DNA from: Burkholderia cepacia
GTDB taxonomy: Bacteria; Pseudomonadota; Gammaproteobacteria; Burkholderiales; Burkholderiaceae
Direction: 5' to 3'
DNA length: 64,000 nucleotides
NCBI RefSeq assembly: GCF_029962485.1
Contig: NZ_CP073638.1
Span: forward strand, 434,001-498,000
The position numbers and the translations under genes are program-made. Shown here in pieces: positions 10,894-51,174 of this stretch (position 1 is its first letter; each line of letters opens with the position of its first letter). The notes under the pieces were generated by a model, which saw only the letters and a list, made by a program, of their open reading frames with translations, did no database searches and was not told where the DNA came from.

Positions 10894-11393
10894 CGCGGAT
10901 GGTATGGCTCCATCATTCAAGCAACCGGCAGCACGGTGTTTACGGGATGGTGCCGGTGACGATCAGCAAGGAATTTGCGTCGCGTTACCCGTGTGTCAAG
11001 TCACGGACGCAAGCCGGTGAAATGCAGCTCTGGTGGTCGTAGCCGGAAAAGCGACGGGCGGGTAGACATCCGGTCCCGTGGTCCGAACGTCGAGTGAGCG
11101 CAATGACGGCTTGCCGGCGCCCTGAATGGGCAGCGAAATATTGCATCAATAATTTAAATATTAAATATCTTGAAAATCAGGTTGATCACCGTCGATTCCT
11201 GGTTTCGCTCCTTGAGCGTATCAGCACTGCTGTTTCGATCGTCAAGAATGGTCAACGGTGCTTGCAAGTGCCAATGGGATAAGCGACGATGAATTCGCTG
11301 TAACAAACGGTTACTTCTCCACGCGTCGTGTGCGGTTTTACGTACTGGTCCGTGTTCATTGCATATACCGTTTGCGGAACCACATAGCGTCCC
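10894..11393. other. Intergenic region with AT-rich patch
   Basis: I find no supported gene. From about 11140 to 11180 the sequence becomes strikingly AT-rich compared with its surroundings, and the next gene is also lower in GC. The AT-rich patch may hold the promoter of the CPBP gene at 11394 and may mark the edge of acquired DNA. A 62-codon frame here has no family resemblance. Confidence 0.5.
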
Positions 11394-12239
11394 ATGAACT
11401 CCGATTCGAATCGATATTGCTTCCCGAACCTGCTGGAAGCGTTCTTCATCGTCGTCGTGCTGAACATGGTCGAGTATCTGATGAACTCGATCATCTGGTC
11501 GATCGGCCGAAGCGCCGGGCTCCAAATGATGGCGATCGCCAGTATTGGGCGCGTTCTCGCGAACGGGCTCGTATTCACCGTGCTGCTTTATCACGGCAAA
11601 TCGACCTACCGGAATCTGCTGCACGACAGTACCGATTCCTGGCGAACGACAATCGGGCAATTTATTGTTCCCGTCTTGCTGATCACACCGGGATTGCTGG
11701 TGGTGATGAGCGTGCTTGAAGTCGGAGTCGGGCAGTTTTTTCCGTTGAGCGGGAGCCGGGATGAGGCCCGCGAGGTTTATGTGAATGGCGGGCTCGGACT
11801 GATCGTGTTGACTTGCGTAATTGCGCCGCTGCTTGAGGAGATGCTGTTTCGCGGCGTGATGCTTCGCAGTTTTTTGCGACAGTATCCGGCTGGAACGGCG
11901 ATCGCGCATTCGGCCGCCGTATTCGGGCTTGCACATTTGAATGTCCATCAGTTCGTTCTTGCGTTCGGACTCGGCTTGTTGATTGGAAAACTGTACGCGG
12001 CCACACGTTCGCTGCTGCCCGGCATTTTGATTCATGCGTGCTACAACACAGCCGTGGTGATCGTCGCACTGAAATCGCCATTCGTGTTTTCCAGAGAGAG
12101 TCTTCTGGATATCTGGCCCACGGCGTGGTGGTTCGGTGCGCTGGTGTCGGGCGGCGTTGGTGCGTGGTTGCTGGTCAAGTCGATCGATGCGCTGCGAATC
12201 GGGCCGGCGGGTGCGACGAATCACGACAGCGTGAACTGA
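11394..12239 (+). CDS. CPBP-family intramembrane protease
   Basis: A 281-residue membrane protein with about eight hydrophobic segments. The family motifs are complete: EE at 148-149 in APLLEEMLFRGVMLR, His181 in FGLAHLN, and His214/Asn218 in ILIHACYNTA. These are the residues expected for a glutamic intramembrane protease (CAAX protease / bacteriocin-immunity type). The substrate is unknown. Base composition is lower in GC than flanking genes, suggesting transfer. No regulator or bacteriocin precursor is adjacent; a lipoprotein gene follows 41 bases later on the same strand. No strong ribosome-binding site is seen before the ATG. Confidence 0.85.
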   Translation: MNSDSNRYCFPNLLEAFFIVVVLNMVEYLMNSIIWSIGRSAGLQMMAIASIGRVLANGLVFTVLLYHGKSTYRNLLHDSTDSWRTTIGQFIVPVLLITPGLLVVMSVLEVGVGQFFPLSGSRDEAREVYVNGGLGLIVLTCVIAPLLEEMLFRGVMLRSFLRQYPAGTAIAHSAAVFGLAHLNVHQFVLAFGLGLLIGKLYAATRSLLPGILIHACYNTAVVIVALKSPFVFSRESLLDIWPTAWWFGALVSGGVGAWLLVKSIDALRIGPAGATNHDSVN

Positions 12240-35516: not shown

Positions 35517-35869
35517 GTTTGCGCGTGCGTGCTGCGTCGTCCCGTAAGCATGCAAATCGAGGCCGAATCTCCTGATGCGGCGAATTGTCTGAAACATATT
35601 TTAACTGTTTCCCGATTATCGCCACGCAACGTGATATCTGGTGGATTCTTAACTGTGGCGAAGAGAATCGAGAGTCAATACTGGCGAATTCTGATTAATT
35701 TCAGTCAAAACAAGATGAATTAATTTGAGATAGAAGGGGGCAGAATTATCCCAAAAATACATTGCGTCACGTCCTTACAATGCTTGGTAATTGCTGACAG
35801 TCATCCTATGGTTTTATGACGACTGCTTTGCTAACGTTCATCGATCTGAAAGAAGTCCAATAAAGAACG
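35517..35869. other. AT-rich upstream region of cdiA
   Basis: About 350 bases, markedly AT-rich from 35580 to 35860, with no gene I can support. It must contain the cdiA promoter. CTGACA near 35797 followed by TATGAC is a possible but weak pair. The cdiA ribosome-binding site is a poor AAAGAA. Confidence 0.45.
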
Positions 35870-38800
35870 ATGAATCAGAAGACCTACCGTCTGGTGTATT
35901 CCAGACTCCGGGGAATGGTGGTGGCTGTTGAAGAGACGGCTGCTGCTTCGGGGAAAACAGCGTCCGGCGAGCGCCGTGCCGGCCGCCGTGCGCTTGGCGG
36001 TTCGGGCTGGCTGATCGCGGCCGCATCGCTGGCCGGCGCGCCTTCGCTCGCGCCGGCGCAGATCGTGCCGACGCCGGGCGCGCCCACCCACGTGATCCAG
36101 ACGCAGAACGGTTTGCCGCAGGTGAATATCGCCAGGCCCTCCGGCGCCGGTGTATCGGTCAATACCTATAACCAGTTCGACGTTCAGAAGAACGGCGCGA
36201 TCCTGAATAACTCGCCGACGCTCGTCAATACGCAGCAGGCCGGTTATATCAACGGGAATCCGAATTTCGGGCCCGGCCAGTCGGCCCGGATCATCGTCAA
36301 CCAGGTGAACAGCGCGAACCCGTCGCAGCTTCGCGGTTATGTCGAAGTCGCCGGAAATCGCGCGGAAGTGGTGCTGGCCAACCCGGCCGGTATCGTCGTC
36401 GACGGCGGCGGCTTCATCAATACATCGCGTGCCACGCTGACGACCGGGCAGCCATACTACGGCGCGGACGGTTCGCTTGCCGGCTACAACGTCAACCGTG
36501 GCCTCGTTACCGTGCAGGGCGCGGGGCTCAATGCGGCGAACGTCGATCAGGTCGACATCATTGCCCGCGCCGTGCAGGCGAATGCGGCGATCTACGCGAA
36601 GAACCTGAACGTCGTCGCTGGAGCTAACCAGGTCAATCACGACACGCTGGCAGCGACGCCGATCCAGGGCGACGGCGCCGCGCCAGGCGTCGCGATCGAC
36701 GTCAGCCAGCTCGGCGGGATGTACAGCGAGCGGATTTATCTGGTCGGCACCGAAGGTGGCGTCGGCGTGCGTAACGCCGGCACGATCGCGGCCCAGGCCG
36801 GTGACATGACGCTGCAGTCGAACGGCCGGCTCGTGCTGACCGGCATGACCACGGCGACCGGCGATCTCGCGATGTCGGCGGCGGGCGGTATCGACAACAG
36901 TGGCACGGTCTATGCGCAGCAATCGGTATCGGCGAACACGGCGGCCGATCTCGTAAACAGCGGCACGTTCGCCGCGCAACAGAGCGCGACGATTGCGGCG
37001 GGCTCGGTGAACTCGACTGGCACGCTCGGCGCGGGCGTGAACAACGACGGCGCGGTCGGGCACAGCGGCGACCTGAACGTCACGACGTCGGGGCAACTGA
37101 CGGCGACCGGCCGGAACCTGGTCGGCGGAGATGCGTCGCTTACCGGTGGTAGCGTGAATCTTGCCGGCAGCCAGACGGCTGCGAACGGCGCGCTCGCGTT
37201 GAGTGCGACGGCGGGCGACCTCAATCTGCCAGACGCGAAGACGAGTGCGCAGGGTGCCATTACGGCGAATGCGACCGGTACGCTTGTCAACGATCGCGGC
37301 AGCGTGTCGAGCGACAGCGGCATTACGCTCAGGGGCGGCAATGTATCGAACCAGGGCGGCAAGGTGTCGGCGCAAGGGCCGCTGCTGGTGCAGGCGGCCG
37401 GGCAGCTCGCCAACCAGTCGGGCACACTCGTGTCGCAAGCTGCCGCGGAGGTGCGCGGCGACTCGATCCTGAACAACCAGGGAACGATCCAGAGCGCCGC
37501 AGGGATGACGGTGGCCGGTGGGGCGCTGGACAACTCCGGCGGGCGCGTCACGTCGCTGAATGGCGACGGGTTATCGGTGACGACGACGGGGCTGCTGACG
37601 AATGCAGGCGGTACGACAGCGGGTGGTGTGCAGGGTGGCGTAATTGGCGGTAACGGCGACGTCACGCTCCAGGCTGGTCAGATGGTCAATCACGGTACGG
37701 TGACCGCCCGGCAGGACCTTCGTGCGACGAGCCGGGCGCTCGATAATGGCGGCGGCACGCTGTTAGCCGGGCGGAATGCGAACCTCGATGCCGGCGCAGC
37801 ACTGACGAACGCCGCCGGCAGTATCGCAGCGGGTCAGGCGGCGGCCATCAAAGCGACGTCGCTCGACAACGGCGACGGTTCCATCAACGCAGCGCAACTG
37901 GCACTGACTGCCAGCGATCTTGCGAACCGCGGCGGGTCGATCACGCAAACCGGCACGGGCGCCATGCTCGCGGCCGTCTCCGGGATGTTTGACAACACCC
38001 GCGGCACGCTGCAAACCAACAGCACCGACCTGATCCTTTCGCCCACCGCACTGGTCAACGACCAGGGCAAGATCGCGCACGCCGGCAGCGGCACGTTGTC
38101 GATCGCGACCGGCACGCTGTCGAACAACGGCGGGCAGATCGCAACGAACGGTGCACTCGCGCTGCAAGCGGCCGCGCTCTCGAACCAGGCCGGCACCTTG
38201 AGTGCGCAGCGGCAGGCGTTCGTTGCCGTCCAGTCGCTGGACAATCGTGCGGGAGGTTACGTCGGAGCCGACAGCGTCAGGCTGAATTCACAAGGCCGGA
38301 TCGATAACGGTGGCGGCACGATCGAGGCGAACAACGGGCTGACGGTGGCGGCCGACAGTCTCGCGAACGACACGGGTTCGATCAAGAACATCGGTGTGAG
38401 CAGTCTGAGCGTGACGTCGACGAACGCGTTGTCGAACACGGCCGGCGGCACGATCGGCGGCAATGGCGATGTAGCGGTCCTGGCGGGCAGCGTCGACAAC
38501 TCGACCGGCTCGCTGTTGTCGGCGCAGGCGCTTACGCTGTCGTCGAACGGCGCGTTGACGAACACCGCAGGCCTGATTCAGGCCAACGGCAACCTGGGCG
38601 TTCACGCCCAGGGGATGATCCGCAATACCGGCGGCCAGATCGAGGCGAACGATGCGACATCAACGCTGGCGCTTTCCGGCAGCAGCATCGACAACAGTGA
38701 TGGCCGGGTCGTCAACGTCGGGACAGGTGCGACGACGATCGATGGCGGCGCGTCGATCACGAACGGCAATGCGGCAGGCAAGCCCGGCGCGGGCGTGATA

Positions 38801-41800
38801 GGCGGCAACGGCGATGTGACGGTCACTGCACAATCGCTGGCGAATACCCAGGGGGCCCAGGTGCTGGCGGGACGCGATCTGATGCTCGCCGTTGCAAACC
38901 GGCTCGACAATTCGAACGGCGTGCTGTCCGCTGCGGACAATGCAACGCTGAACGGCTCGAACACGGTGCTCGTCAACCAGGCGGGGTCCATTCGCGCGAA
39001 CGGCGCGCTAGGGCTGACCACCGCCTCGATCGACAACACGAACGGCAAGATCGGCAACGACGCAGGTAGCGGCGGCAGTGTGGCGTTGAATACCGGTGCG
39101 CTGGTCAACCAGGGCGGCGCGATCGGCAGCGACCGGGACCTGACGCTGACAGCCGACTCGCTGAGCGGCGCCGGGTCGGTCGTCGCGGGTCGCAACGGTA
39201 GCGTGTCGCTCGCAAGCGATTACACCCATATCGCCGCGAACAAACTGCACGCGAACGGCGATCTGACGTTCTCCACGTCGGGCAAGCTGACGAACCAGGG
39301 CACGCTCGACGCCAACGGCGCGCTAACCGTCAACGCAGCTAATGTCGACAACCAGGTGGGCGCCGATCTGAACTCGGCAAACACGACAGTCAATGCGAAC
39401 GGCGGAACGATCGATAACGCGGGCCGAATCGAGGGCGATACGGTCGCGACGAACAGCGCGACGCTGAACAATACGGCGACGATCATCGGCCGCGACGTCA
39501 CGGTGAATGCTGGCGTCATCTCGAATGCCGGGGCGGCGGCCGTGATCGCTGCAGCCAATCGGGCGAACCTGTATGCGTCGAACCGGTTGTCGAACACCGG
39601 CGGGGCGAGCATCTTCAGCGTCGGCGACATCAACATCGCGGCGAATGGCCAGCGAGACGCCGACGGGTTCCTCGCCAATCGCGCGCCGACAGTGCTGAAC
39701 GACCAGTCGTCGATCGAGGCGCTGGGCAGCGTCGAACTGGCGGCCGATACGTTCACGAATACGCGCTCGGCTCCCGTGATCGACACCGAGACGACCAGCG
39801 TCGAAAAAAAGCGCGAGACGAAGCGCAGCAAGTACATCGGTTGCCCGACCGGCAACGCGGCGCCGAATCACGGTGTTTGCTCCGATGCGACGTGGCGCGG
39901 GCCGTACAAGACGCCGCAGACCGCGACGTATTCGAGCAGCCAGATCGTCTCCAGCACAAACGGCGACAATGCGGTCGATCGCGTGCTCGTCGTCGACGTC
40001 AACGGCCAGCCGCAGACGATCTACTACAACACGCTGACCGACAACGGCAACGGCACGCTCACGGCCGTCTATTGGGACGGCTACGACCCGCATGTCAACT
40101 ACGATCCCGCCAGCGAATACGCGACCCGCAGCGACGGCCACAATGGCTACCAGCGCGTCGAGATCGCGCGCGACACCACGACGACGATCCGGCAGGACAA
40201 GGTAACGAGCCAGGCGCAGCAGGCGCAACTCGTCGCCGGCGGCAATATCGTGATGAAGAATGTCGGCACGATCAACAACGAATACAGTGTGATTTCGGCA
40301 GGCAGGTCGATCAAGATCGGCGATGCGGACGTTGCTGGAAGCGCAGGCTCGGGCGGCTACGGCGGCACGACGGTCAATAACGTCGGGCAGACACTGTATC
40401 AGTACCAGCGGGACGACATCGTCTCCACTTATGCGTGGAACGAGAACACCAGCTCGGACGTCGGCAAGATCGTGCAGCCGTCGCGGGTGTACACGCCGGT
40501 CGCGATCGGCAATACCGGCGGCACGATCGTTGCGAACCAGTCGATCAACATCGATGCGAAGGACGTGAACAACCGCAACGTCGCAGCGGAAAACTCGGCG
40601 ACGGGTGCGACTGGCGGCACGCTCGGCGCGAACCAGGCCAATGGCGGCGTGACCGGCACCGGGCAGTCGAAGGTCGGCCCCGCGACAGATCAGAAGCCGG
40701 TCGACGCAGTGCAGTCGGTGGTGAGCCCGACCGGCGTGCTGCCCGACCTGAAGCTGCCGACGAGCGGCCTCTACTCGATCAATCCGGCACCCGGGCAGCC
40801 GTATCTGATCGTCACCGACCCGCGCCTCACGAGCTACACGAACTTCATCTCGAGCGATTACATGCTCGGCCAGCTCAACCTGAATCCGGCGAGCATCGAG
40901 AAGCGTCTCGGCGACGGCATGTATGAGCAGCAGATGGTGCGCAACCAGATCACGCAATTGACTGGGCGCACGTTCCTGCCGGGCTATGCGAGCGCCGAGG
41001 ACGAGTATCGCGCGCTGATGACGAGCGGCGCGAATTACGCGAAGCAGTTCGGCATGGTGCCGGGGATGACGCTGTCCGCCGCGCAGATGGATGCGCTGAC
41101 GAGCGACATCGTGTGGCTCGTGAACCAGGTCGTAACGTTGCCGGACGGCAGTACGACGCAGGTGCTGGCGCCGGTCGTATATCTGGCGAAGACGCATGCG
41201 AACGATCTTCAACCGACCGGCGCGCTGATCGCGGCCGACGACGTCGAGATCCGCGCAGCCGGCAGCACGACGAACAGTGGCGTGATCAAGGGCGGCACTA
41301 AGACGGTCGTGACTGCGACGGACATCCTGAATCGCGGCGGCACGATCGCAAGCGACGGGACGAACGGCACGACGGTGGTGTCGGCGAGCAACGACGTCGT
41401 GAACGCGTCGGGGCAGATGACCGGCAACCGGGTGGCGGTGCTGGCCGGGCGGGATGTGGTCAATACGACGCTGGTGGATGCGGTCGGCGTTAGCGGGGCT
41501 GACGGCGCGAGCAAGGTGAGCCAGAGCCTGATCGGCCAGCAAGGGACGATCGCGTCGACGGGAGATCTCGCCGTGCAAGCCGGGCGGGATCTGTCGATTC
41601 ATGGCGCGAATCTTTCGGCGGGCGGTGATGCGCTCGTGACGACCGGGCGCGACATCAATGTCGATACGGTTCAGTCGAAGACGGATCAGTCGTTGTATCT
41701 GAACGACCAGCATCATTGGGAAGAGTCGACGACGACGCATGTGACGAGCGGTGTTGGCGTTGGCGGCAACCTGACGATGCAAAGCGGCAACGACGCGTCG

Positions 41801-44800
41801 TTCAAGGGAGCGACCGTGACGGCCGGGAAGGATCTGTCGGTCGTGGCGGGCGGGAATCTGACGGCGACGGCGGTAACCGACGAGCATCAACTGAACAACG
41901 TCGCGGTCGACGGCCGTGCGCGCAAGGAGGTCGATCGCACATACGATCAGCAGGCTGTCGGGACGACCTTCAGTGCTGGCCAGAATGCCACCCTCGGGGC
42001 AGTCAACAGGACTGACGCGACCAAGGGCAACGTGACGTTGACCGGTTCGTCGGTGACAGCCGGTACGAACGCAGAGACGGCTGGCGGCGTGACGATCGCG
42101 GCGTCCAAGGACGTGACAATCACAGAAGCCCGCGAAGAGCACGACAGCTACCAGAACGTGCAGGTCAAGCGCGGCAGTTTCGTGTCGGGTACGGCGACGA
42201 AGGAATCGCACGATACGCGCGCGAATATCGGCGTGGCGAGCACGGTGTCCGGCGATACGGTGCAGATCCAGGCGGGCAGGGATCTCACGGTTCAGGGCAG
42301 CAACATCGTCGGCACGAACGATGTAAAGCTTGGTGCAGCGAACAACGTCGCGATCAGGACTTCTCAGGATACCGTCCAGTCGGCGAACAGCTACGAGAAG
42401 AAAGAATCCGGGTTCATGTCGAACGGCGGGTTGTCCGTATCGGTCGGCACGCGTTCAATGTCGGATCAGCAGCATTCGACAGACGTTAGTAACACGGGCA
42501 GCATGGTCGGTTCGCTGAACGGGAATCTGACGGTCGCGACGGGCAACGACCTGCACGTAACTGGTAGCACGCTGCACGCTGGCAATGATGTGAACCTCGC
42601 CGGTAAGACCGTCAAGATCGATGCTGCGACCGATACGACGAATTTTGCGGAGCAACAGCAGTTCCGCCAATCCGGATTGACGGTGGGCGTGACGAACCCG
42701 GTTGTCGCGGCGGTACAGACGGGCCGGCAATTGGCGAACGCGGCGCAGAGCGTGGGCAGCGATCCGCGCCTGCTTGCGCTTGCGGCGGCCACATCGGGGC
42801 TTGCGGCGAAGAATACCTATGACGCGGTGAAATCGGTCGGTGGCAATCCGGTGACGGCGGTGGCCAGTGTCGGTATCAACGTATCGGTTGGGGCGAGCAA
42901 GAGCGACAGCCAGATGCAGGCACAGTCGAGCACGGCGGTGGGGAGCACGGTGTCGGCGGGTCGGAATGTGACGATTGCGGCCGCTGGTGCCGGCGAGGAC
43001 AGCAATATCGACGTGATCGGAAGCACGATCTCCGCAGGCAAGAACGCGATGCTTGCCGCCGAAGGCGATGTGAATCTTCAAGCGGCTCGGAATACGAGCA
43101 GTCAGCACAGTACGAATAGTGGGTCGAGCGCTTCGGTAGGTGTTTCGTTCACCGTTGGCGCAAAGACTGGGGTTGCCCTCACGGCAGGAGTGGCAGGGAA
43201 TCGTGGTAACGCTGACGGTGATTCGTCGACATCGACGAATACGCACGTAACCGCAGGCAACCAACTCACCATTCAGTCAGGTGGAGATACGAATCTGAAG
43301 GGCGCGGTCGCATCTGGCAAGCAGGTGGTTGCGGACGTTGGCAGCAACCTGAATATTGAAAGCCTGCAGGACAAGGATCGCTACGATTCGAAGCAGCAGA
43401 ACGCAGGCGTATCGGTGAGCGTGTGTCCCCCGCCGTGCGTATCGAGCGTGGTGGGCAATGTCGGCCAGACGAAGATGAGCAGCGACTACGCCAGCGTGAA
43501 CGAGCAATCGGGGATCAAGGCGGGCGATGGCGGTTTCCAGGTCGATGTGAAGGGCAACACCGATCTCAAGGGCGGCGTAATCGCGAGCAGCGACAAGGCC
43601 GTGCTGGACGGTGTGAACAGTCTGACTACGGCGACGCTGACGCATAGCGATATCGAAAACCATGCGTCATACGATGCCTCGCAAGTCGCGCTGAGCGGTG
43701 GCTACAGCTTCGGTGGGGATAGCGGTTCGGATGGCAACAAGAGCGGTATTGGTAAGGACCAGAAGGGTACGGCCGACAATGTGAATCCGGTTCCCGGGAC
43801 CGAGTTGCCGAAGGGTGATGGTGGATTCTCGGCAGCGACCCCAGTTGCGCTGGGCGCATCGGGCGACGCGAATTCGACCACGCGAAGCGGGATCAGCGGC
43901 GGCGCGTTGACGATTCGTGACGATTCAGCGCAACAGCAACTCACCCGTCAGTCCGCCGCTGAGACTGTCGCGAGCATCAATCGGGATACATCGGATACCG
44001 GCGGCGCACTTGCGCCGATCTTCGACAAGGGGAAAATTCAGGCCGGGTTCGACATCACGAGTCAGTTCATCAATCAGGTCGGAACCTTTGTTACGAATCG
44101 TGCGACCGAAGTCGATGCAGCGAAGAAGGCTGCGGGCGACGCGAGTCTGACGCCGGAACAGCGTGCGGCGGCGCAGCAGCGCGCGGATCAGTTGTCGGCG
44201 GAATGGGGACCGGGCGGGACCTATCGTCAGGTGTTGACGGCGCTTGCGGTAGCGGCGGGCGGTAACGTGACTGGAGGCGCGGGCCAGTTCGCGCAAAACG
44301 CGACAGTGGCGTATCTGCAGGAACTTGGGGCGAATGGGGTTAAGCAGATTGCGGATTACCTCAGCAAAGACAGTTCGGCGGGTGGCGAGACGGCCCGTGC
44401 TGCGATGCACGTCATTGTAGGTTGCGCGGGGGCGGTAGCGAGCAGTCAGAGGTGTGGTGCTGGCGCGATGGGCGCTGCTGCAAGTTCGGTGTTGGGTAGT
44501 TTGCTGAAACCGGCGGACGGTTTGTCCGCCTCGGACCTCGAAGCCCGCGTGACCTTGGTGAGCAACTTGGTCGCAGGCATCGCGACGGCAGGCGGACTCG
44601 ATGGCGCAACCGCAAGCAGCGCTGCGAGAATCGAGGCAGAGAATAACCAAGTGGCGCCGATGGCGCCCGTTCCGGGCTGGCTTGCAGGATTCAACTTGCC
44701 AGGTTATGTCGGGCAAAGCCGTAGCAAGGATGATAGCGTGATTGTTGACCCTGCTACGGAGCTTGATCCATCGATGAAAGGCGGTGCTCTTGGAACACCG

Positions 44801-45181
44801 AATCCGGGGCCCGGAGTGATTGATGCGTTGGTGACGGCGGTTGTGCCGAGGTGGATTCAGAGTCTCTTGAGCGGTGTGATCACGGCGGATAGCAAGCCAG
44901 TCATAGACTCGAAGATTAGTGATCAGCTTGTAGATCGGGGGTGGACCGAGAGCGAAATTCAGGCGGTCGTCAAGAATGGCGCTACCGGCACTAGTATTGA
45001 TAAGCGATCCGCAAAAAAATCGCCCGACGGTGTGGCGAGAGATGATCCGGCAACGGTATATGGGGCACCAAATGGTTATATTGTTGTGAATGATAGAACT
45101 GGAGAGGTGGTTCAAGTCAGTGATAAGAATGATCCGAGTTGGACTGTTGATGGTCGAGTTAAATGGAGTAGTTCAAAATGA
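35870..45181 (+). CDS. cdiA: CdiA/BcpA contact-dependent inhibition effector with colicin E5-type nuclease tip
   Basis: A 3103-residue TpsA protein. Residues 1-75 are an extended signal (ESPR, MNQKTYRLVYSRLRGMVVAV). A two-partner secretion domain follows (about 75-340; NTYNQFDV, NPAGIVVDGGGF). Long FHA-type beta-helix repeats come next, then a central non-repeat region (about 1320-1780) and further repeats with a pre-toxin region. The VENN-like junction is AENN at 2923-2926. The C-terminus (about 3011-3103) matches colicin E5 RNase closely: RGWTESEI, NGATGTSIDKRS, DDPATVYGAP, VVNDRTGEVVQVSDK. Colicin E5 cuts the anticodon of tRNA-Tyr, -His, -Asn and -Asp. The final ~500 bases are lower in GC, a sign of toxin exchange. 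CdiI overlaps by four bases. Confidence 0.95.
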   Translation: MNQKTYRLVYSRLRGMVVAVEETAAASGKTASGERRAGRRALGGSGWLIAAASLAGAPSLAPAQIVPTPGAPTHVIQTQNGLPQVNIARPSGAGVSVNTYNQFDVQKNGAILNNSPTLVNTQQAGYINGNPNFGPGQSARIIVNQVNSANPSQLRGYVEVAGNRAEVVLANPAGIVVDGGGFINTSRATLTTGQPYYGADGSLAGYNVNRGLVTVQGAGLNAANVDQVDIIARAVQANAAIYAKNLNVVAGANQVNHDTLAATPIQGDGAAPGVAIDVSQLGGMYSERIYLVGTEGGVGVRNAGTIAAQAGDMTLQSNGRLVLTGMTTATGDLAMSAAGGIDNSGTVYAQQSVSANTAADLVNSGTFAAQQSATIAAGSVNSTGTLGAGVNNDGAVGHSGDLNVTTSGQLTATGRNLVGGDASLTGGSVNLAGSQTAANGALALSATAGDLNLPDAKTSAQGAITANATGTLVNDRGSVSSDSGITLRGGNVSNQGGKVSAQGPLLVQAAGQLANQSGTLVSQAAAEVRGDSILNNQGTIQSAAGMTVAGGALDNSGGRVTSLNGDGLSVTTTGLLTNAGGTTAGGVQGGVIGGNGDVTLQAGQMVNHGTVTARQDLRATSRALDNGGGTLLAGRNANLDAGAALTNAAGSIAAGQAAAIKATSLDNGDGSINAAQLALTASDLANRGGSITQTGTGAMLAAVSGMFDNTRGTLQTNSTDLILSPTALVNDQGKIAHAGSGTLSIATGTLSNNGGQIATNGALALQAAALSNQAGTLSAQRQAFVAVQSLDNRAGGYVGADSVRLNSQGRIDNGGGTIEANNGLTVAADSLANDTGSIKNIGVSSLSVTSTNALSNTAGGTIGGNGDVAVLAGSVDNSTGSLLSAQALTLSSNGALTNTAGLIQANGNLGVHAQGMIRNTGGQIEANDATSTLALSGSSIDNSDGRVVNVGTGATTIDGGASITNGNAAGKPGAGVIGGNGDVTVTAQSLANTQGAQVLAGRDLMLAVANRLDNSNGVLSAADNATLNGSNTVLVNQAGSIRANGALGLTTASIDNTNGKIGNDAGSGGSVALNTGALVNQGGAIGSDRDLTLTADSLSGAGSVVAGRNGSVSLASDYTHIAANKLHANGDLTFSTSGKLTNQGTLDANGALTVNAANVDNQVGADLNSANTTVNANGGTIDNAGRIEGDTVATNSATLNNTATIIGRDVTVNAGVISNAGAAAVIAAANRANLYASNRLSNTGGASIFSVGDINIAANGQRDADGFLANRAPTVLNDQSSIEALGSVELAADTFTNTRSAPVIDTETTSVEKKRETKRSKYIGCPTGNAAPNHGVCSDATWRGPYKTPQTATYSSSQIVSSTNGDNAVDRVLVVDVNGQPQTIYYNTLTDNGNGTLTAVYWDGYDPHVNYDPASEYATRSDGHNGYQRVEIARDTTTTIRQDKVTSQAQQAQLVAGGNIVMKNVGTINNEYSVISAGRSIKIGDADVAGSAGSGGYGGTTVNNVGQTLYQYQRDDIVSTYAWNENTSSDVGKIVQPSRVYTPVAIGNTGGTIVANQSINIDAKDVNNRNVAAENSATGATGGTLGANQANGGVTGTGQSKVGPATDQKPVDAVQSVVSPTGVLPDLKLPTSGLYSINPAPGQPYLIVTDPRLTSYTNFISSDYMLGQLNLNPASIEKRLGDGMYEQQMVRNQITQLTGRTFLPGYASAEDEYRALMTSGANYAKQFGMVPGMTLSAAQMDALTSDIVWLVNQVVTLPDGSTTQVLAPVVYLAKTHANDLQPTGALIAADDVEIRAAGSTTNSGVIKGGTKTVVTATDILNRGGTIASDGTNGTTVVSASNDVVNASGQMTGNRVAVLAGRDVVNTTLVDAVGVSGADGASKVSQSLIGQQGTIASTGDLAVQAGRDLSIHGANLSAGGDALVTTGRDINVDTVQSKTDQSLYLNDQHHWEESTTTHVTSGVGVGGNLTMQSGNDASFKGATVTAGKDLSVVAGGNLTATAVTDEHQLNNVAVDGRARKEVDRTYDQQAVGTTFSAGQNATLGAVNRTDATKGNVTLTGSSVTAGTNAETAGGVTIAASKDVTITEAREEHDSYQNVQVKRGSFVSGTATKESHDTRANIGVASTVSGDTVQIQAGRDLTVQGSNIVGTNDVKLGAANNVAIRTSQDTVQSANSYEKKESGFMSNGGLSVSVGTRSMSDQQHSTDVSNTGSMVGSLNGNLTVATGNDLHVTGSTLHAGNDVNLAGKTVKIDAATDTTNFAEQQQFRQSGLTVGVTNPVVAAVQTGRQLANAAQSVGSDPRLLALAAATSGLAAKNTYDAVKSVGGNPVTAVASVGINVSVGASKSDSQMQAQSSTAVGSTVSAGRNVTIAAAGAGEDSNIDVIGSTISAGKNAMLAAEGDVNLQAARNTSSQHSTNSGSSASVGVSFTVGAKTGVALTAGVAGNRGNADGDSSTSTNTHVTAGNQLTIQSGGDTNLKGAVASGKQVVADVGSNLNIESLQDKDRYDSKQQNAGVSVSVCPPPCVSSVVGNVGQTKMSSDYASVNEQSGIKAGDGGFQVDVKGNTDLKGGVIASSDKAVLDGVNSLTTATLTHSDIENHASYDASQVALSGGYSFGGDSGSDGNKSGIGKDQKGTADNVNPVPGTELPKGDGGFSAATPVALGASGDANSTTRSGISGGALTIRDDSAQQQLTRQSAAETVASINRDTSDTGGALAPIFDKGKIQAGFDITSQFINQVGTFVTNRATEVDAAKKAAGDASLTPEQRAAAQQRADQLSAEWGPGGTYRQVLTALAVAAGGNVTGGAGQFAQNATVAYLQELGANGVKQIADYLSKDSSAGGETARAAMHVIVGCAGAVASSQRCGAGAMGAAASSVLGSLLKPADGLSASDLEARVTLVSNLVAGIATAGGLDGATASSAARIEAENNQVAPMAPVPGWLAGFNLPGYVGQSRSKDDSVIVDPATELDPSMKGGALGTPNPGPGVIDALVTAVVPRWIQSLLSGVITADSKPVIDSKISDQLVDRGWTESEIQAVVKNGATGTSIDKRSAKKSPDGVARDDPATVYGAPNGYIVVNDRTGEVVQVSDKNDPSWTVDGRVKWSSSK

Positions 45182-45537
45182 ATGCAGGTCGAGCCAGAAA
45201 TACGCTCGTTGATCGATCGAAGCGTTACACCAATCCCGAGGAGTTTTTCTCACTTCACGGAAGTGTGGTCATGAAGCTCTCTCCCGAGGCGGCGATTGCT
45301 GTATGTGAGCAGGCGGCGCATAGGGGCTTACTCGTTGCCCGCGTCGAAGGTGGAATTTGGCATAACTCAAAATTTGAAGCGCGCATTGACTGTATATGGG
45401 ATGGTGCGGATCCGCCGTTAGATGCAGAGGCTGCACACGTAAACAATCTGTCTGCTGTCGAATTCATCCGATCCGAATTTCCTGAGCATAGTGCTTTCAT
45501 TATTACAGCTCCGCCAATAACTGGATGGGAGCGGTAG
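45178..45537 (+). CDS. cdiI: CdiI immunity protein, ImmE5-like
   Basis: A 119-residue protein. From residue 32 on (MKLSPEAAIAVCEQAAHRGL, GGIWHNSKF, SAFIITAP) it resembles the 83-residue immunity protein of colicin E5, which blocks the nuclease by mimicking its RNA substrate. It should protect the producer from the CdiA tip. The start at 45178 overlaps cdiA in an ATGA junction and has GGAG 9 bases upstream; a second start at 45271 with GGAA would give a protein of ImmE5 length. The 31-residue extension is therefore uncertain. Lower GC than neighbours, like the toxin region. Confidence 0.88.
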   Translation: MNAGRARNTLVDRSKRYTNPEEFFSLHGSVVMKLSPEAAIAVCEQAAHRGLLVARVEGGIWHNSKFEARIDCIWDGADPPLDAEAAHVNNLSAVEFIRSEFPEHSAFIITAPPITGWER

Positions 45538-45653
45538 TTTGAATTGGCTGCGTGGGGGGACTTGTGCGTGTGTCGCGTCTCCGACGCAGGATAAAACAGT
45601 GTGGCCGACGGTGAATTGAGAAATCGGCGCCGACACTGAGCGAATTTAGATAA

Positions 45654-47093
45654 ATGCGAGAGACCGGAAAACTACCGCTTGTCGTCGACCTCGACGGCAC
45701 GCTGACCCCATCGGACACCCTGATGGAATCAGTGATCCACCTGGTAAGACGCAAGCCTTCAAACCTGCTGCGATTGCCTTTCTGGCTTGCCGGCGGGCGC
45801 GCCGCGTTCAAGGCCAAAGTTGCAGAACACGCCGATTTTCGAGCTGAGACACTCCCGTATCGCGAACCGCTTGTCGACTATCTCGAGAGCGAACGCGAAA
45901 GTGGCCGCAAGATCGTGCTCGCAACTGCCGCGCATCGTTCGATCGCCGAGCAGGTGAACGCGCATCTCGGTCTGTTTGATTGCGTCATCGCAACTACCGG
46001 CAACACGAATCTCAAGGGCGAGACCAAACTGGCCGGCATTCGCCGGCAGGTCGGCGACGACTTCGTGTATGCGGGTGACAGCAAAGCCGATCTGCCGATC
46101 TGGGCAGGTGCGAAAGGTGCAGTCCTTGCCGGCGTTACGCATGGTGTTGCGGCGAATGTCCGTAGTCGTATTCCGGTTGAGCGAGAGTTTTCGAACGTGC
46201 GCGCGGGCTTCGCCACATGGTGCAAAGCGCTGCGTGTTCACCAGTGGCTGAAAAACCTGTTGCTGTTCGTTCCGCTGCTGACTGCGTTTGCGTTCCTCGA
46301 CACCGACAAGGTTGCCACACTCGCACTCGCCTTCCTGTCGATGTCGCTTGGCGCGTCGGCCACCTACATCGGCAACGATCTCTGGGATCTGGACGACGAT
46401 CGCCGACACCCTCGTAAGCGCAACCGCGCATTCGCAAGTGGCACGCTGTCGATTGTGCAGGGGCTCGGTTGCGCGGCACTGCTGCTGACTCTGGCGTTTG
46501 CGCTGGCATTCGTGGTGTCGCCCGAATTTGCCGGCATGTTTGCGCTCTATCTGCTGCTCACAACCGCATATAGTTGGCGCCTGAAATCGATCGTGCTGCT
46601 CGATGTCGTCGTGTTGTCGTTGCTGTACACATATCGAATCATCGCCGGAGCCGTCGCTGCGGAAATCACGGTCAGCCGCTGGTTACTCGCGTTTTCCGTA
46701 TTCGCGTTCCTGAGCCTCGCGCTCGTAAAGCGCTGCTCCGAGCTGGTGCTTTTGCGTCAGCACAACAAACGCGCTTCGGCAGGCCGCGACTACCGCGTGA
46801 GCGATCTCGAAGTGCTCTGGCCGTTCGGTATCGGTGCATCGCTTGCCGCAGTGGTCGTCTTCGGCCTCTTCATCAACGCCCCTGAAACCGCAGCACGCTA
46901 CGCGATTCCGCACTTGCTCTGGTTCGTGCAGATCGGCCTGATCTACTTGTTCGGCCGACTCTGGATCACCACGGTTCGCGGCGCGATGCACGACGATCCG
47001 ATCGTTCATATCCTCGAAAATCGCGGCAGCTTCGCCATGCTTTGCGTCATGGTGACGATCGTGTTGGCCGCTCACTTCCTGCCGGCACCGTAA
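45654..47093 (+). CDS. HAD phosphatase-UbiA prenyltransferase fusion, DPPR-synthase type
   Basis: A 479-residue bifunctional protein. Residues 1 to about 190 are a HAD phosphatase: DLDGTLT (nucleophile and acid Asp), ATAAH and AGDSKADLPIW. Residues about 190-479 are a UbiA-type membrane transferase with eight or so segments; NDLWDLDDDRRHPRKRNRAFASG contains the NDxxDxxxD prenyl-phosphate/Mg site and matches decaprenyl-phosphate phosphoribosyltransferase (Rv3806c type). A plausible reaction is polyprenyl phosphate plus PRPP to polyprenyl-phosphoryl-5-phosphoribose, with the HAD domain removing the 5-phosphate. Product and lipid length are inference. It starts an operon with the next three genes, and no epimerase genes (DprE1/2) are present in the window. 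Confidence 0.8.
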   Translation: MRETGKLPLVVDLDGTLTPSDTLMESVIHLVRRKPSNLLRLPFWLAGGRAAFKAKVAEHADFRAETLPYREPLVDYLESERESGRKIVLATAAHRSIAEQVNAHLGLFDCVIATTGNTNLKGETKLAGIRRQVGDDFVYAGDSKADLPIWAGAKGAVLAGVTHGVAANVRSRIPVEREFSNVRAGFATWCKALRVHQWLKNLLLFVPLLTAFAFLDTDKVATLALAFLSMSLGASATYIGNDLWDLDDDRRHPRKRNRAFASGTLSIVQGLGCAALLLTLAFALAFVVSPEFAGMFALYLLLTTAYSWRLKSIVLLDVVVLSLLYTYRIIAGAVAAEITVSRWLLAFSVFAFLSLALVKRCSELVLLRQHNKRASAGRDYRVSDLEVLWPFGIGASLAAVVVFGLFINAPETAARYAIPHLLWFVQIGLIYLFGRLWITTVRGAMHDDPIVHILENRGSFAMLCVMVTIVLAAHFLPAP

Positions 47094-47107
47094 GCGGCGA
47101 CAACCCT

Positions 47108-48298
47108 ATGACGGAAAAGAACCAACACCGGGTGCGAGCCTTCTGCCGTTTCGCCATCGTCTACGTGCTGCTGTTCATCTGCGCCGGAAACATCACGAAC
47201 AGCATGCTGCTGAAATGGGGTTTCCGCGACGATCAGAAGGGTGACTTTGCAACGAGCTACAGCCTAGTCGGCATGATGAACGGCGACGCACCGAGGCCTT
47301 ATGTCTACCGGTCGTCGTTTCCGACTGCCGCCAAGTGGATTGCCGAGCAGCTTGACCAAACCAGGCAGGACAAGCTGTTCAAATCGATCAAGCGACATGA
47401 CTCACTGCGCAACGCCTATTTCACGAGCGTTCCGGAGGAATACTGGACGCCTGTCACGGCGCTCGTCTATCACGTGACGTATATCGCGATCGTACTGTCG
47501 ACCCTCTTTGCGCTTCTGCTGATCTACAAGCTGGCCAGGATGCACGGACTTGGCTTCGGGCATTCCGTCGGCTTTCTGGCTGCGTTCAGTTTCGTCTATC
47601 CGTTGACGTTTCAGCAGGGTGGCTACTACTACGATTTCTTTGAACTGCTCGGCGTGCTGGGTGCGTGCTACTTCCTGATCAAGAGGCGAATGCTCGCATG
47701 CACGCTGATGATTGCCGTCTTCTCCCTGAACAAGGAAACGTTCTTTCTCGTACCGCTCGCGTTGTTCCTGTTGCACGAGCGGGACGTCGCAATGTCGAAG
47801 CGCGTTGCGTGGCTCGTACTGCAGCTCGGGATCTGCATCGCGACCCGGCAGTTCATCATGAGCGGATATAGTGAAAACGCTGGCGGATTCGTCGAATATC
47901 ACGTGTGGGACAACCTGAAGTTCTGGGTGAATCCCAAGTCCTATTTGTCCTTCTACAACCTCATCGGCAAAGGCATCTTCACGCCGAGCCTGGAAAATCC
48001 GCTGATGCTCGTGCCACTTGCCGTGTTCTTCCGGGCAGCCTGGCGAGCGACGCCAACGCGCTACCGAAGCTACTTCTTTGCGGCATTCCTGCCCGTACTG
48101 GTGCTGTTCATCTTTTTCGGTTATCGGGACGAGGCGCGCAATTTCTCGGTCGTGTTTCCCGCGGTCGTGTTGATTGCGCTGCACGGCGCGAACCGGTTCA
48201 ACGCAATTTTCAGCAGCAGTACAGATTCATCGGGTGGCAGTCGTGTCTCGCCCAATCGTCGGGCGGATATCGCGGTGGCGACGGAGGCGGCGCGATGA
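47108..48298 (+). CDS. Polytopic membrane protein, GT-C glycosyltransferase-like
   Basis: A 396-residue protein with about nine or ten hydrophobic segments and a large loop after the first one (residues about 45-115) containing RPYVYRSSFPTAAKW and acidic positions. SLNKETFFLVP near residue 210 resembles a motif of GT-C-fold transferases that use polyprenyl-phosphate sugars. I could not name a family with certainty. It lies 14 bases after the HAD-UbiA gene and overlaps the next gene by four bases, so a job in making or using a prenyl-linked sugar is likely. It could transfer the sugar in the periplasm to a surface acceptor. Confidence 0.55.
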   Translation: MTEKNQHRVRAFCRFAIVYVLLFICAGNITNSMLLKWGFRDDQKGDFATSYSLVGMMNGDAPRPYVYRSSFPTAAKWIAEQLDQTRQDKLFKSIKRHDSLRNAYFTSVPEEYWTPVTALVYHVTYIAIVLSTLFALLLIYKLARMHGLGFGHSVGFLAAFSFVYPLTFQQGGYYYDFFELLGVLGACYFLIKRRMLACTLMIAVFSLNKETFFLVPLALFLLHERDVAMSKRVAWLVLQLGICIATRQFIMSGYSENAGGFVEYHVWDNLKFWVNPKSYLSFYNLIGKGIFTPSLENPLMLVPLAVFFRAAWRATPTRYRSYFFAAFLPVLVLFIFFGYRDEARNFSVVFPAVVLIALHGANRFNAIFSSSTDSSGGSRVSPNRRADIAVATEAAR

Positions 48299-48633
48299 AC
48301 TGGCTGATCGTTGTCGCGAGTGGCGTGTTCGGCGGGCTCGCCAGCGTATTGCTCAGGGTTGCTGCGCTCAAGGAAATCTCACTTGGCGAGTCGAACGTAC
48401 TGCCATGGATTGCGCGCGGTGCCGCCGTTGCCGCTTACGGCGTCGGGTTCGTGCTTTACGCGGCCGCATTGCGCAAGACAACCCTCGGCATTGCCTATCC
48501 CACCATGGTGGCGATCTCCATGCTCGTCGTGCTGTCGTTCACAGCAATGCATGAGCAACTATTGCGGCCGATGCAGGCGGCCGGCGCATTCGTCATCCTG
48601 ATCGGCGTTTGGATGATCACGCGGTACGCGTAA
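48295..48633 (+). CDS. EamA/SMR-like small membrane protein, possible flippase subunit
   Basis: A 112-residue protein with four membrane segments and the EamA/SMR fold pattern (GVFGGLASVLLRVAAL; GFVLYAAALRKTTLGIAYPTMVAISMLVVLSF). Relatives of this size include ArnE/ArnF, which flip prenyl-phosphate aminoarabinose, and SMR exporters. Because it is translationally coupled (ATGA overlap, strong GGAGG) to the GT-C-like gene and follows a prenyl-sugar synthase, a flippase for the polyprenyl-phosphate sugar is the best guess. It lies 17 bases before cdiB. Multidrug export is the alternative. Confidence 0.6.
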   Translation: MNWLIVVASGVFGGLASVLLRVAALKEISLGESNVLPWIARGAAVAAYGVGFVLYAAALRKTTLGIAYPTMVAISMLVVLSFTAMHEQLLRPMQAAGAFVILIGVWMITRYA

Positions 48634-48650
48634 TCCAGAGAAACCAGCAT

Positions 48651-50396
48651 ATGAAGAAAAAAATCCGGGGAGCCAACCTCGTCGCGGCTTCGGTACTGCT
48701 CGCATCGGCCGGAGTCGCGGCGCAATCCGCTTCGCCAGGCACGCTACCGGCAAGCAATGATCAGCGCGCTCGCGAGCAGGAAGAAGCGCGTGAACGCGAA
48801 AGAACCGTTTCTGCTCCTGCGGTTCGTTCATCGATGACCGAGCGTGTCGCGTTCCCGTCATTGCCGACCGAATCGCCATGTTTCCGCATCGACCGTTTTG
48901 CACTCGACGTACCCGATTCGCTGCCCAACACGGTGAAAGCCCAGGGCGCGTCCACGTTGCCGATGGATCGCTTCGCCTTCGCGCGCGAGTGGCTCGGTCA
49001 CTATGAAGGGCAGTGCGTTGGCAAGCAGGGCCTCGATGTGCTCGTGAAAGGGCTGTCCCAGGCTATCCTTGCGCGCGGCTACATCACGACGCGCGTGCTT
49101 CTGCCCGAGCAGAGTCTGTCCGCAGGGACGCTCAAGCTGGCGTTGATCCCCGGCGTCGTCCGCCACGTGCGCTTCTCCGACGAGAAACTCCGCGGCACCT
49201 GGAAGACCGCCTTCCCCACCCGCGACGGCGACCTCCTGAACCTGCGCGACCTCGAGCAAGGCCTCGAGCAAATGAGGCGCGTCTCGAGCCAGGACGTCTC
49301 GATGCAGATCGTCCCCGCCGACACGCCGGGCGAAAGTGACGTCGTGCTCGACATCAAGCGCGGCAAACCCTGGACCGTCGTCGCCTCGATTGACAACTCC
49401 GGCACTCGCGCCACCGGCCGCCTGCAAGGCAACCTGTCGGTCGGCATCGACAACCCGCTCGGCCTGAACGATATCTTCAACATCGGGGTGAGTCAGGATC
49501 TCGAACTCGGCGACAAGCGTCTCGGCTCGCACGGCTGGAACGGCTTTTATTCGATTCCGTGGGGCTACTGGACCGCGACGCTGTCGGCCTACACGAACAC
49601 GTACTACCAGCAGATTGCCGGTGTGAACCAGACCTTCGTCGTGAGCGGCAACTCGAAGACCATCGACTTCAAGCTGAACCGCGTGCTGTCGCGCAGCCAG
49701 AACGACGTGCTCGGCGCGCAATTCCGGCTGTCGCGCCGCTTCGGCCAGAGCTTCATCGAAGACACGGAAATCCCGCAGCAGCGCCGCAACAACACGTTCG
49801 TCGAGATCGGCCTGACCGATCGTCACTACTTTGGCGGCGCGCAGTTCGACGGGATGCTCGCGTACCGGCAGGGCATCGGTGCATTCGGCGCGCAGGAGGA
49901 CATCCAGGTGGCCGAAGGCGGTCCAACCTACCGCTACCGGATAGCCGTGCTCGACGCGAACCTGCAGGTGCCGTTCGTCGTAGCGAAACAGCCGTTCCGC
50001 TATGTCGGCACCGTCCACGGCCAATACACGGGCAATTCGCTGTACTACATCGACGACCTGACGATCGGCAGCCGCTACACGGTGCGCGGTTTCGATGGCG
50101 AGACGATGCTGGCAGCCGCACGCGGCTTCTATTGGCGCAACGAGTTGCAGATGCCGATCGGGCAGACGGGGCAGGCCGTCTACGCAGGGCTCGATTACGG
50201 TCGCGTGTGGGGGCCGCAGCCTGTCGCGCTGGTCGGCACGCAACTGGTCGGTGCGGTGATCGGCGTGAAGGGAAGTGTCGGTACGCGATTCGGCGCTTAT
50301 GCGTACGACCTGTTCGCGGGTACGCCGGTCTACAAGCCATCGGGTTTCCCGACCGCGCGCGTGACGTTCGGCTTCCAACTGACGGCGCAGTTTTGA
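48651..50396 (+). CDS. cdiB: CdiB/TpsB outer-membrane transporter
   Basis: A 581-residue Omp85-superfamily two-partner secretion transporter. Signal peptide about 1-26, then POTRA domains with the ShlB/FhaC pattern (ESPCFRIDRFALD; GLSQAILARGYITTRVLLPEQSLSAGTLKLALIPG), and a 16-strand barrel ending in Phe (TFGFQLTAQF). SRYTVRGFDGE contains the RG-F lid-lock motif. It exports CdiA across the outer membrane. In AIOB-type Burkholderia CDI loci it is the last gene, as here. It shares a compact operon with the three membrane genes upstream; the ATG at 48651 has a weak ribosome-binding site. Confidence 0.92.
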   Translation: MKKKIRGANLVAASVLLASAGVAAQSASPGTLPASNDQRAREQEEARERERTVSAPAVRSSMTERVAFPSLPTESPCFRIDRFALDVPDSLPNTVKAQGASTLPMDRFAFAREWLGHYEGQCVGKQGLDVLVKGLSQAILARGYITTRVLLPEQSLSAGTLKLALIPGVVRHVRFSDEKLRGTWKTAFPTRDGDLLNLRDLEQGLEQMRRVSSQDVSMQIVPADTPGESDVVLDIKRGKPWTVVASIDNSGTRATGRLQGNLSVGIDNPLGLNDIFNIGVSQDLELGDKRLGSHGWNGFYSIPWGYWTATLSAYTNTYYQQIAGVNQTFVVSGNSKTIDFKLNRVLSRSQNDVLGAQFRLSRRFGQSFIEDTEIPQQRRNNTFVEIGLTDRHYFGGAQFDGMLAYRQGIGAFGAQEDIQVAEGGPTYRYRIAVLDANLQVPFVVAKQPFRYVGTVHGQYTGNSLYYIDDLTIGSRYTVRGFDGETMLAAARGFYWRNELQMPIGQTGQAVYAGLDYGRVWGPQPVALVGTQLVGAVIGVKGSVGTRFGAYAYDLFAGTPVYKPSGFPTARVTFGFQLTAQF

Positions 50397-50409
50397 CGGC
50401 GACGGCCAT

Positions 50410-50634
50410 GTGACGGAAGGCGGGTTCAGGCCGCCAGAGGGGATGACCCTGAACTTCACGTCGAACCTCATCCCCGATCCGTTCCCGCCGGTTGTTGAAC
50501 TGGCAGACGTATCCGGCGGAACTGTCACGTACAAGCCAGCAATCCAGGGCAACCTCATTTCGACTCCGCCGAATTTCAGCCTGAGCGTCCATCCGAACGC
50601 TCCCGGTTTGTATGTGGTTCGCCTGAAACGGTAG
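50410..50634 (+). CDS. Small hypothetical protein or gene remnant
   Basis: A 74-residue frame from a GTG 13 bases after cdiB. Codon use looks coding, and the sequence (FTSNLIPDPFPPVVELADVSGG; GNLISTPPNFSLSVHPNAPG; VVRLKR) is protein-like, possibly a fragment of a beta-rich protein. I see no signal, membrane segment or family motif. It may be a remnant of a longer gene. The frame is open in a neutral region, so it could also be chance. Confidence 0.3.
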   Translation: MTEGGFRPPEGMTLNFTSNLIPDPFPPVVELADVSGGTVTYKPAIQGNLISTPPNFSLSVHPNAPGLYVVRLKR

Positions 50635-51174
50635 GCACTGCGCCTGGCCGTGGCGAGCGTCCGGTTTCGTCTGTCCGACGACTTGGTGCGTCGAGCCGCG
50701 GCCATCATGGCGTCACTATTCAGTTGATATCGGATCGTCCCGGCATCCCGGCACGCTTGGGCAGTGAAGGGCCGGCAAAACAGGATCAGCTTGCCCGAAA
50801 ACATCCGACCCTATCAATGAAGCCCGGTCGGACTTGCGATTCGTGCTCGTCGCGGCGCATCGTTCGGGCAATTTTCTCCCAAATGCATCACAAGTCATTC
50901 ATCCAATGAAAAAACCACGTCAGTTCCCGGTATGATGCGCACCTCGCGCGTGATCGGCCGTCGAACTTTGATGCGACATTGATACACGCAGCGCTACAAA
51001 TCCGCACAACGAGCGCGTGAAAGATTTTGTAATATAAGACCCGTATACTTGTAAGTTCTGATCCAGGCGCCACCTGCCTCCGTCTTCGGCTGACCGCCCA
51101 CGCAGAACAACCAGATTCGTCGCCGCCTGGCCTTCTTGCGCCGCGACACGCTATGCACCACCACTGAACAACTT
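50635..51174. other. Intergenic region before mprF
   Basis: No gene is supported. The last 150 bases become AT-richer and contain TATACT near 51043 as a possible -10 element for mprF, with no good -35. I see no strong terminator for the CDI operon here. Confidence 0.45.

Follow-up and report, generated by a model that had tools for sequence, protein, structure and literature searches.

In a 64,000-nucleotide stretch of the Burkholderia cepacia genome (the window, G000:C2:434001-498000, from a source genome of 7.7 Mb in three contigs), an operon for contact-dependent growth inhibition (CDI) carries three membrane-protein genes between cdiI and cdiB that, judged by comparison with characterized relatives, appear to form a self-contained three-component pentofuranosylation cassette. 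This trio of genes tracks the receptor-binding class of CdiA, and not the toxin, the immunity protein or CdiB. By analogy, we tentatively propose that the cassette alters the glycan on which CdiA of that class docks and that it may represent a CDI counterpart of phage O-antigen conversion. CDI systems and three-component pentofuranose systems are both known kinds, and their combination in one locus and its tie to a receptor class appear to be new within the literature searched. A cassette tracking one receptor-binding class pairs a class of CdiA with a candidate surface change.

Three predicted glycan genes in the CDI operon

The cdiA, cdiI and cdiB genes of the window are all complete by Pfam analysis and encode a TpsA protein with a C-terminal toxin domain, an immunity protein and a TpsB protein (Table 1). 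An earlier note on this DNA, made from the sequence alone, had placed three tightly packed membrane genes between cdiI and cdiB, and we confirmed their coordinates and packing: 116 bp separate cdiI from a gene for a HAD-UbiA fusion, followed by 14 bp to a gene for a GT-C-like protein, a 4-base ATGA overlap with a gene for a small SMR-like protein and 17 bp to cdiB. Across 23 loci, the gap between the HAD-UbiA and GT-C-like genes was 4 to 26 bases, while that between the GT-C-like and SMR-like genes was a 4-base overlap in 15, -1 in 5, 2 in 2 and 130 in locus L072. The third gene stood 16 to 17 bases before cdiB in 10 CDI-linked loci, 19 bases before it in L039 and overlapped it in L071. The trio is likely co-transcribed with the CDI genes. 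A simple scan of positions 45000-51300 returned zero sigma-70-like sites (mean of 2.0 in shuffled sequences), a result of little weight, and four terminator-like sites (mean of 5.8 in shuffles), which says equally little. No gene other than the trio was placed between 45537 and 48651, and no BcpO lipoprotein was seen there, with no lipobox search made. The earlier note had called the locus AIOB type; its gene order, A-I-x-B, stood, whereas CdiA has EAENN as its toxin junction (residue 2922 by motif scan) and not Nx(E/Q)LYN. NxELYN was absent from the last 600 residues of CdiA in the motif scan.

Table 1. Features of the CDI operon and the surrounding insertion (window positions)
Feature	Position	Strand	Basis
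cdiA (3103 aa): ESPR, two-partner secretion (TPS) domain, Fil_haemagg_2/FHA repeats, C-terminal Colicin_E5 RNase domain (residues 3011-3095)	35870..45181	+	Pfam
CdiA residues about 751-1950, class T, spanning the expected receptor-binding domain; co-varies with the trio	38120..41719	+	identities in 150-aa bins
cdiI, colicin-E5 immunity type (ImmE5, PF11480), 4-base overlap with cdiA	45178..45537	+	Pfam
HAD-UbiA fusion, predicted polyprenyl-phosphate-ribofuranose synthase	45654..47093	+	Pfam, NCBIfam NF006088, PDB 8j8j, motifs
GT-C-like membrane protein (396 aa), predicted pentofuranosyl transferase	47108..48298	+	alignments, hydropathy, weak NF046093 matches
SMR/EamA/ArnF-like protein (112 aa), predicted lipid-linked-sugar flippase	48295..48633	+	hydropathy; family scores all below curated cut-offs
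cdiB, two-partner secretion transporter (ShlB, POTRA)	48651..50396	+	Pfam, gap measurement, tree
2.98-kb unit common to the window cdi region and trio copies without cdi genes	45653..48639	+	blastn
Whole insertion, CDI plus trio	35517..50840	no strand	94 bp between matching flanks in a same-species genome

The HAD-UbiA protein scored 624.5 bits against the UbiA family model NCBIfam NF006088 (cut-off, 351), and its UbiA part matched the mycobacterial decaprenyl-phosphate phosphoribosyltransferase (DPPR synthase) of PDB 8j8j with an E value of 1.7e-25, which bears out the earlier likening of this protein to DPPR synthases. Its motifs DLDGT, GDSKAD, NDxxDxxxD and KRxxE lie at positions 12, 141, 241 and 359, and the HAD, NDxxDxxxD and KRxxE motifs were kept in 23 of the 23 HAD-UbiA homologues examined. 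The spacing of the motifs equals that of the tested residues in ORF15 of Citrobacter youngae, a HAD-UbiA polyprenyl phosphoribofuranose synthase (PMC11127046). The HAD-UbiA fusion is therefore named here as a predicted polyprenyl-phosphate phosphoribosyltransferase plus 5-phosphatase.

DprE1 helps to convert the ribose lipid to arabinose. We considered an arabinose-making epimerase for the trio and rejected it, given that DprE1 was not found in the window genome at an E value of 1e-30 or better (no separate DprE2 search was made). At the same threshold, DprE1 was present in 5 of 65 Burkholderia genomes, each time less than 400 bp from a different HAD-UbiA protein (40 to 43% identity). Since the genome has no detected DprE1 and other HAD-UbiA proteins accompany the arabinose pathway, the sugar of the trio is most likely ribofuranose, at which the product of the CDI trio would end. 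In a related genome, genes for a HAD-UbiA protein, a membrane protein, GtrA and DprE2-like and DprE1-like proteins are clustered (L099:14164-19466); the latter two score under the NCBIfam cut-offs for the DprE1 and DprE2 names, and the cluster is likely an arabinofuranose system in a relative.

No Pfam family was found for the GT-C-like protein of the window. Its hydropathy profile consists of a single hydrophobic segment, a 95-residue loop and then more segments, a topology as expected for GT-C enzymes, and its invariant residues in alignments include P64, R68, D176, E179, N208-E210, E342 and R344. The NF046093 profile ("cell surface glycopolymer formation") weakly matched 22 of 74 aligned GT-C-like members (best E value, 4.7e-5), and PMT_2 weakly matched one of the 74 (0.0087). 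A structure model built with 14 close sequences had a mean predicted local distance difference test (pLDDT) score of 52.7, too poor for a fold search. The SMR-like protein has four hydrophobic segments, and its ArnF, EamA and SMR matches were all below threshold. We consider it very probable that the trio performs make-flip-transfer chemistry, and the module for a pentofuranosyl-phosphoprenol that the earlier note had envisaged is also what we predict, in a conserved arrangement with cdiB. The cassette would need only phosphoribosyl pyrophosphate and polyprenyl phosphate as inputs; the SMR/EamA-like protein would flip the lipid-linked sugar, and the GT-C-like protein would transfer the sugar, probably ribofuranose, to a periplasmic acceptor.

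The trio tracks a receptor-binding class of CdiA

We surveyed 65 Burkholderia genomes, including the source genome G000. Any HAD-UbiA match was found in 25, and an intact trio (three open frames) in 17. In ten of these, the trio is placed between cdiI and cdiB (G000, G008, G014, G040, G048, G052, G054, G058, G059 and G064), with decayed CDI genes around the copy of G058. The other seven have it alone (G010, G022, G024, G025, G027, G051 and G062), and that of G051 is on a 5.9-kb contig (L044) whose context is little known. A narrow majority of intact trios is thus in CDI loci, and not a minority, which the earlier note had named as a finding that would speak against it. A broken copy beside a cdiA end in G020 (L052) was excluded from the trees and motif counts. 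Beyond the 65 genomes, B. arboris (L002), P. podalyriae (L071) and a genome from outside the genus but within the family (L096) showed the same order. Given its recurrence in these three and in 9 of the 65 besides G000, we conclude that the arrangement is not due to chance. The CDI-linked trios occupy several chromosomal sites in at least two genera, and the trio adjoins 9 of the 72 best CdiB places (at least 73% identity over at least about 480 residues), plus the truncated CdiB of G058.

In a wider search, a GT-C profile matched 39 of 398 genomes of the family, a sample that includes part of the genus. Seven strong matches fell outside the genus, among them the full CDI arrangement of L096 and one with a cdiA remnant (L069). 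The GT-C-like gene of L098 lies beside cdiB without both partner genes, and the surroundings of those of L070, L073, L099 and L100 were free of cdi genes as far as the sequence was read. At 1e-60, G000 was the sole match among 369 genomes of the class; a Legionella contig (L075) carries a lone GT-C-like gene. The P. podalyriae trio is in a CDI arrangement with a broken cdiA, and directly before it is a fragment resembling the start of CdiB (L071:8217-8465; 44 aa, 68% to the CdiB of L095), a layout that would fit the replacement of an older cdiB by a trio-cdiB block. In Caballeronia-type loci (L070:9986-11227, L073:9989-11215 and L098:12718-13839), the GT-C-like gene is kept, once right behind cdiB. 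Two distant GT-C-like kin (L124/L125) were found, one within annotated polysaccharide genes of a Caballeronia replicon and the other next to a UbiA gene of a Sphingomonadaceae plasmid; both annotated records have polysaccharide genes in the surroundings. A metagenome protein (P0101) fuses a TPS domain to the end of a GT-C-like protein and is either an assembly chimera or a deletion.

The receptor-binding domain of Escherichia coli CdiA sits between two FHA repeat regions (PMC9487645), and in the window CdiA the domain is expected within residues about 751-1950. Alignment in 150-residue bins split CdiA into two classes at residues about 750 to 1950: class T, with 45 to 98% identity per bin to the window CdiA (mostly above 60%), and class n, with 12 to 46%; class assignment and the receptor-region tree use residues 1251 to 1800. 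Among the 13 trio loci read, 11 had a readable receptor region, and all 11 were class T. Of 50 loci, 5 had no readable receptor region (L035, L042, L076, L081 and L090); the 45 readable rows held ten class-T rows without the trio and no class-n locus with it (0 of 24; Fisher p = 3.5e-5). After L119 and L120 (contig ends) and L121 (probably the other half of trio locus L042) were dropped, the trio was present in 11 of 18 class-T and 0 of 24 class-n loci (p = 7e-6, relatedness ignored). Loci L002, L071 and L096 were found via the trio itself and were hence excluded from a count limited to the 65 genomes, in which the trio accompanied 8 of 15 readable class-T and none of 24 class-n loci (p = 1e-4, relatedness again ignored). 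A genus search for class T gave 17 full-length loci in 16 of the 65 genomes, 8 with the trio, 7 without and 2 cut by contig ends. Not every CdiB locus was fetched, and the HAD-UbiA search showed no further intact trio in the 65 genomes.

The receptor-region tree mixes trio-bearing and trio-free loci, pairing L039 with L116 (support 100), L041 with L117 (92) and L037/L040 with L110/L109 (99), and the CdiB tree mixes them likewise, suggesting that the pairing of trio and class arose more than once. The toxin end and the immunity protein vary among the trio loci. A tie of the trio to a CdiB lineage or a toxin junction was considered and rejected, given that several CdiB lineages and both EAENN-like and other junctions occur.

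Lone cassettes and the proposed role

The open frames of all seven lone trios are intact, and eight lone-trio Burkholderia stretches share about 2.98 kb with the window by blastn. No cdi remnants were found near the lone trios of 8 Burkholderia loci (L036, L003 and L043-L048), and one was found in L069. The ratio of nonsynonymous to synonymous substitution rates was 0.06 to 0.30 in the 11 pairs compared for each gene, apart from a single value of 0.44 for the short third gene; selection thus appears to act on the cassette whether or not CDI is present. The cassette tree mixes CDI-linked with lone copies, and several of its inner nodes are weak (21 to 51). At the window's site, a same-species genome has 94 bp between flanks matching the window at 35516 and 50840, and in 23 of the 65 genomes the two flanking genes lie within about 550 bp of each other (bases read in two, L126 and L130), which suggests an empty site. 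The same site holds a trio alone in G027 (L036), an intact trio together with decayed copies of cdiA and cdiB in G058 (L035), short CDI remnants without the trio in G050 and G030 and about 2.5 kb of other sequence in G055. Class-T CdiA was found in none of the 7 lone-trio genomes; it is missing from most of the 65 too, so this is no evidence by itself.

We favor modification of a docking glycan as the role of the trio because, in CDI loci, the trio was found only beside class T and because it persists without CDI. The cassette would change, in its carrier, the glycan on which class-T CdiA docks, and class-T CdiA, the carrier's own as well as that of rivals and regardless of its toxin, would thereby bind the carrier less, much as in O-antigen conversion by temperate phages. 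A surface glycan is the probable acceptor, and we favor it over CdiA given that the lone trios are intact and that no CdiA position marks the trio loci. The polysaccharide genes around the two distant GT-C-like kin also speak for a surface acceptor. Of the ideas in the earlier note, that of a modified target surface for CdiA agrees better with the tie between the trio and the receptor-binding class. Lipopolysaccharide (LPS) would be the first candidate because LPS mutants resist Burkholderia CDI, as seen for CdiA-II of B. pseudomallei 1026b and for two systems of B. dolosa (PMC9487645, PMC4364669); as of 2022, no other surface molecule of recipients had been linked to Burkholderia CDI (PMC9487645). 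That the trio protects its carrier is a conjecture that we hold with reserve. We are more doubtful of the further possibility that the cassette is a second, toxin-independent immunity that masks the receptor of its own class, a shield kept after the loss of the weapon. If this were true, receptor-based self-exclusion would operate in CDI alongside the immunity proteins, and the orphan cassettes would serve as defences against contact-dependent killing.

Several observations weigh against a docking-glycan role. The 7 readable class-T loci without the trio, of which 6 have a near-full cdiB and one (L118) a decayed cdiB, indicate that the cassette is dispensable for class-T CDI. The GT-C-like genes of the Caballeronia loci have no HAD-UbiA or SMR gene nearby, and by our reading the distant relatives L103 and L104 lie outside glycan gene surroundings. 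The GT-C label is based on topology and weak profile matches, and the poor model left the fold unconfirmed. Both LPS as the acceptor and the binding of class-T CdiA to LPS are assumptions.

An alternative that we regard as unlikely is that the trio is an LPS-variation cassette riding in CDI islands with no functional link to CDI. The 7 of 17 trios that stand alone, the discrete 2.98-kb unit and the lone copy L072, which adjoins genes resembling rmlBAC (names from sequence reading), are all in keeping with a rider. However, a rider should strike class-n loci too, more of which were read than class T, and the trios in CDI loci of the 65 genomes occurred only with class T (8/15 versus 0/24); the trio also spans several lineages of CdiB and two or more genera, always in the same slot.

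It is less likely still that the trio makes a glycan recognized by class-T CdiA, so that delivery is aimed at kin with the same cassette. CDI acts mostly among kin, which counts for such a role, and receptor making would give the same association with the receptor-binding class. Class-T CDI nevertheless persists without the trio: of the 7 genomes concerned, 6 lack any HAD-UbiA match and G023 has only the 43% kind. Sequence otherwise cannot separate receptor making from the hiding of a receptor that we favor.

We consider periplasmic glycosylation of secreted CdiA (or CdiB) by the trio, comparable to the action of modifying enzymes in other CDI operons, equally improbable. The trio lies 17 bp before cdiB in the operon and is associated with the class-T region of CdiA, and there is a precedent in CdiC, an enzyme that acylates class IV CdiA in its receptor-binding domain (PMC8510554). 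However, none of 2,093 CdiA columns differed in frequency by at least 0.8 when 11 class-T proteins with the trio were compared with 9 without it, and the best difference, 0.73, was matched by 36 of 300 label shuffles; this test covers fixed CdiA positions, with diffuse glycosylation or glycosylation of CdiB outside its reach. In contrast, wherever a class IV operon has cdiC, its CdiA reportedly retains the acylated Lys without exception (PMC8510554). In the four pairs compared, trio-bearing and trio-free sister receptor regions were 90 to 97% identical, and the trio stays intact without a nearby cdiA. The suggestion of the earlier note that the trio decorates CdiA thus found no support in the column test or in the lone trios. 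Its other suggestion, that the trio simply neighbors a glycan locus, found no support at the window copy, to which the scan was limited: a Pfam scan of the 13 window genes flanking the operon matched no glycan-synthesis family.

Relation to known systems and neighboring features

The prototype of the three-component pentofuranose systems is ORF15-ORF14-ORF12 of C. youngae O1/O2, with a MATE flippase and a GT136 transferase (PMC11127046). The window trio shares with it a HAD (PRP)-UbiA synthase with the same motif spacing, a separate predicted flippase, a candidate GT-C-type transferase and, for ribofuranose, no need of an epimerase. It differs in that its flippase is SMR/EamA-like and not MATE, its GT-C-like protein, likened by topology, is short (396 aa) and shows no separate C-terminal domain, and it lies in a CDI operon and not in an O-antigen locus. 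An SMR-type transporter in Mycobacterium tuberculosis is mentioned in PMC11127046. With the mycobacterial DPPR synthase and decaprenyl-phosphate-arabinose pathway (Rv3806c, PDB 8j8j), the window trio shares the UbiA domain, whereas no DprE1 was found in its genome and its phosphatase is a fused HAD domain.

Phage gtrABC is a three-gene make-flip-transfer cassette for O-antigen conversion that alters the surface of its carrier. The trio resembles it by analogy, as a cassette of three genes with the same division of labor that would change the carrier's surface, but it has a UbiA-type donor synthase and not GtrB, an SMR/EamA-like protein and not GtrA, and no phage match for its GT-C-like protein. 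Membership in phage-borne gtrABC was considered and rejected, given that family scans of the operon proteins gave no match to the GtrA or GtrB families and that the GT-C-like protein had zero matches in 50,697 phage records.

Among CDI systems, Burkholderia bcpAIOB (PMC3415462) shares the order A-I-x-B, with extra gene material between I and B, whereas the window has three predicted glycan genes in the place of BcpO and the EAENN junction instead of Nx(E/Q)LYN. Another large I-B gap, in bcp-4 of B. dolosa, holds transposases and uncharacterised genes (PMC10449530). The class IV cdiBCAI operon shares an optional modification gene within a CDI operon and a tie to one receptor-binding class, and class IV CdiA uses the LPS core (PMC8510554); CdiC, however, is an acyltransferase that acts on CdiA, whereas the proteins of the window operon gave no match to an acyltransferase family such as that of CdiC, and no conserved acceptor position was found in CdiA. 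In line with the earlier note, which was aware of no described CDI system with such a module, no paper reporting glycan genes inside a CDI locus was found in the literature searched, outside of which fell most subscription papers and preprints. The words Burkholderia, contact-dependent and hemagglutinin are all absent from the main text of PMC11127046, to which this check was limited.

Around the operon, the 13 genes scanned comprise one lysyl-phosphatidylglycerol-synthase-like gene and otherwise unremarkable metabolic, regulatory or unnamed genes; two had no Pfam family. Outside the CDI/trio region, the GC content of the window falls to 0.54 at positions 11001-12000. Elsewhere in the source genome there is a second, partly decayed CDI locus with a CdiB fragment plus CdiA (G000:C2:2000084-2000647 and 2007422-2008546), the CdiA of which has a receptor region 37% like that of class T.

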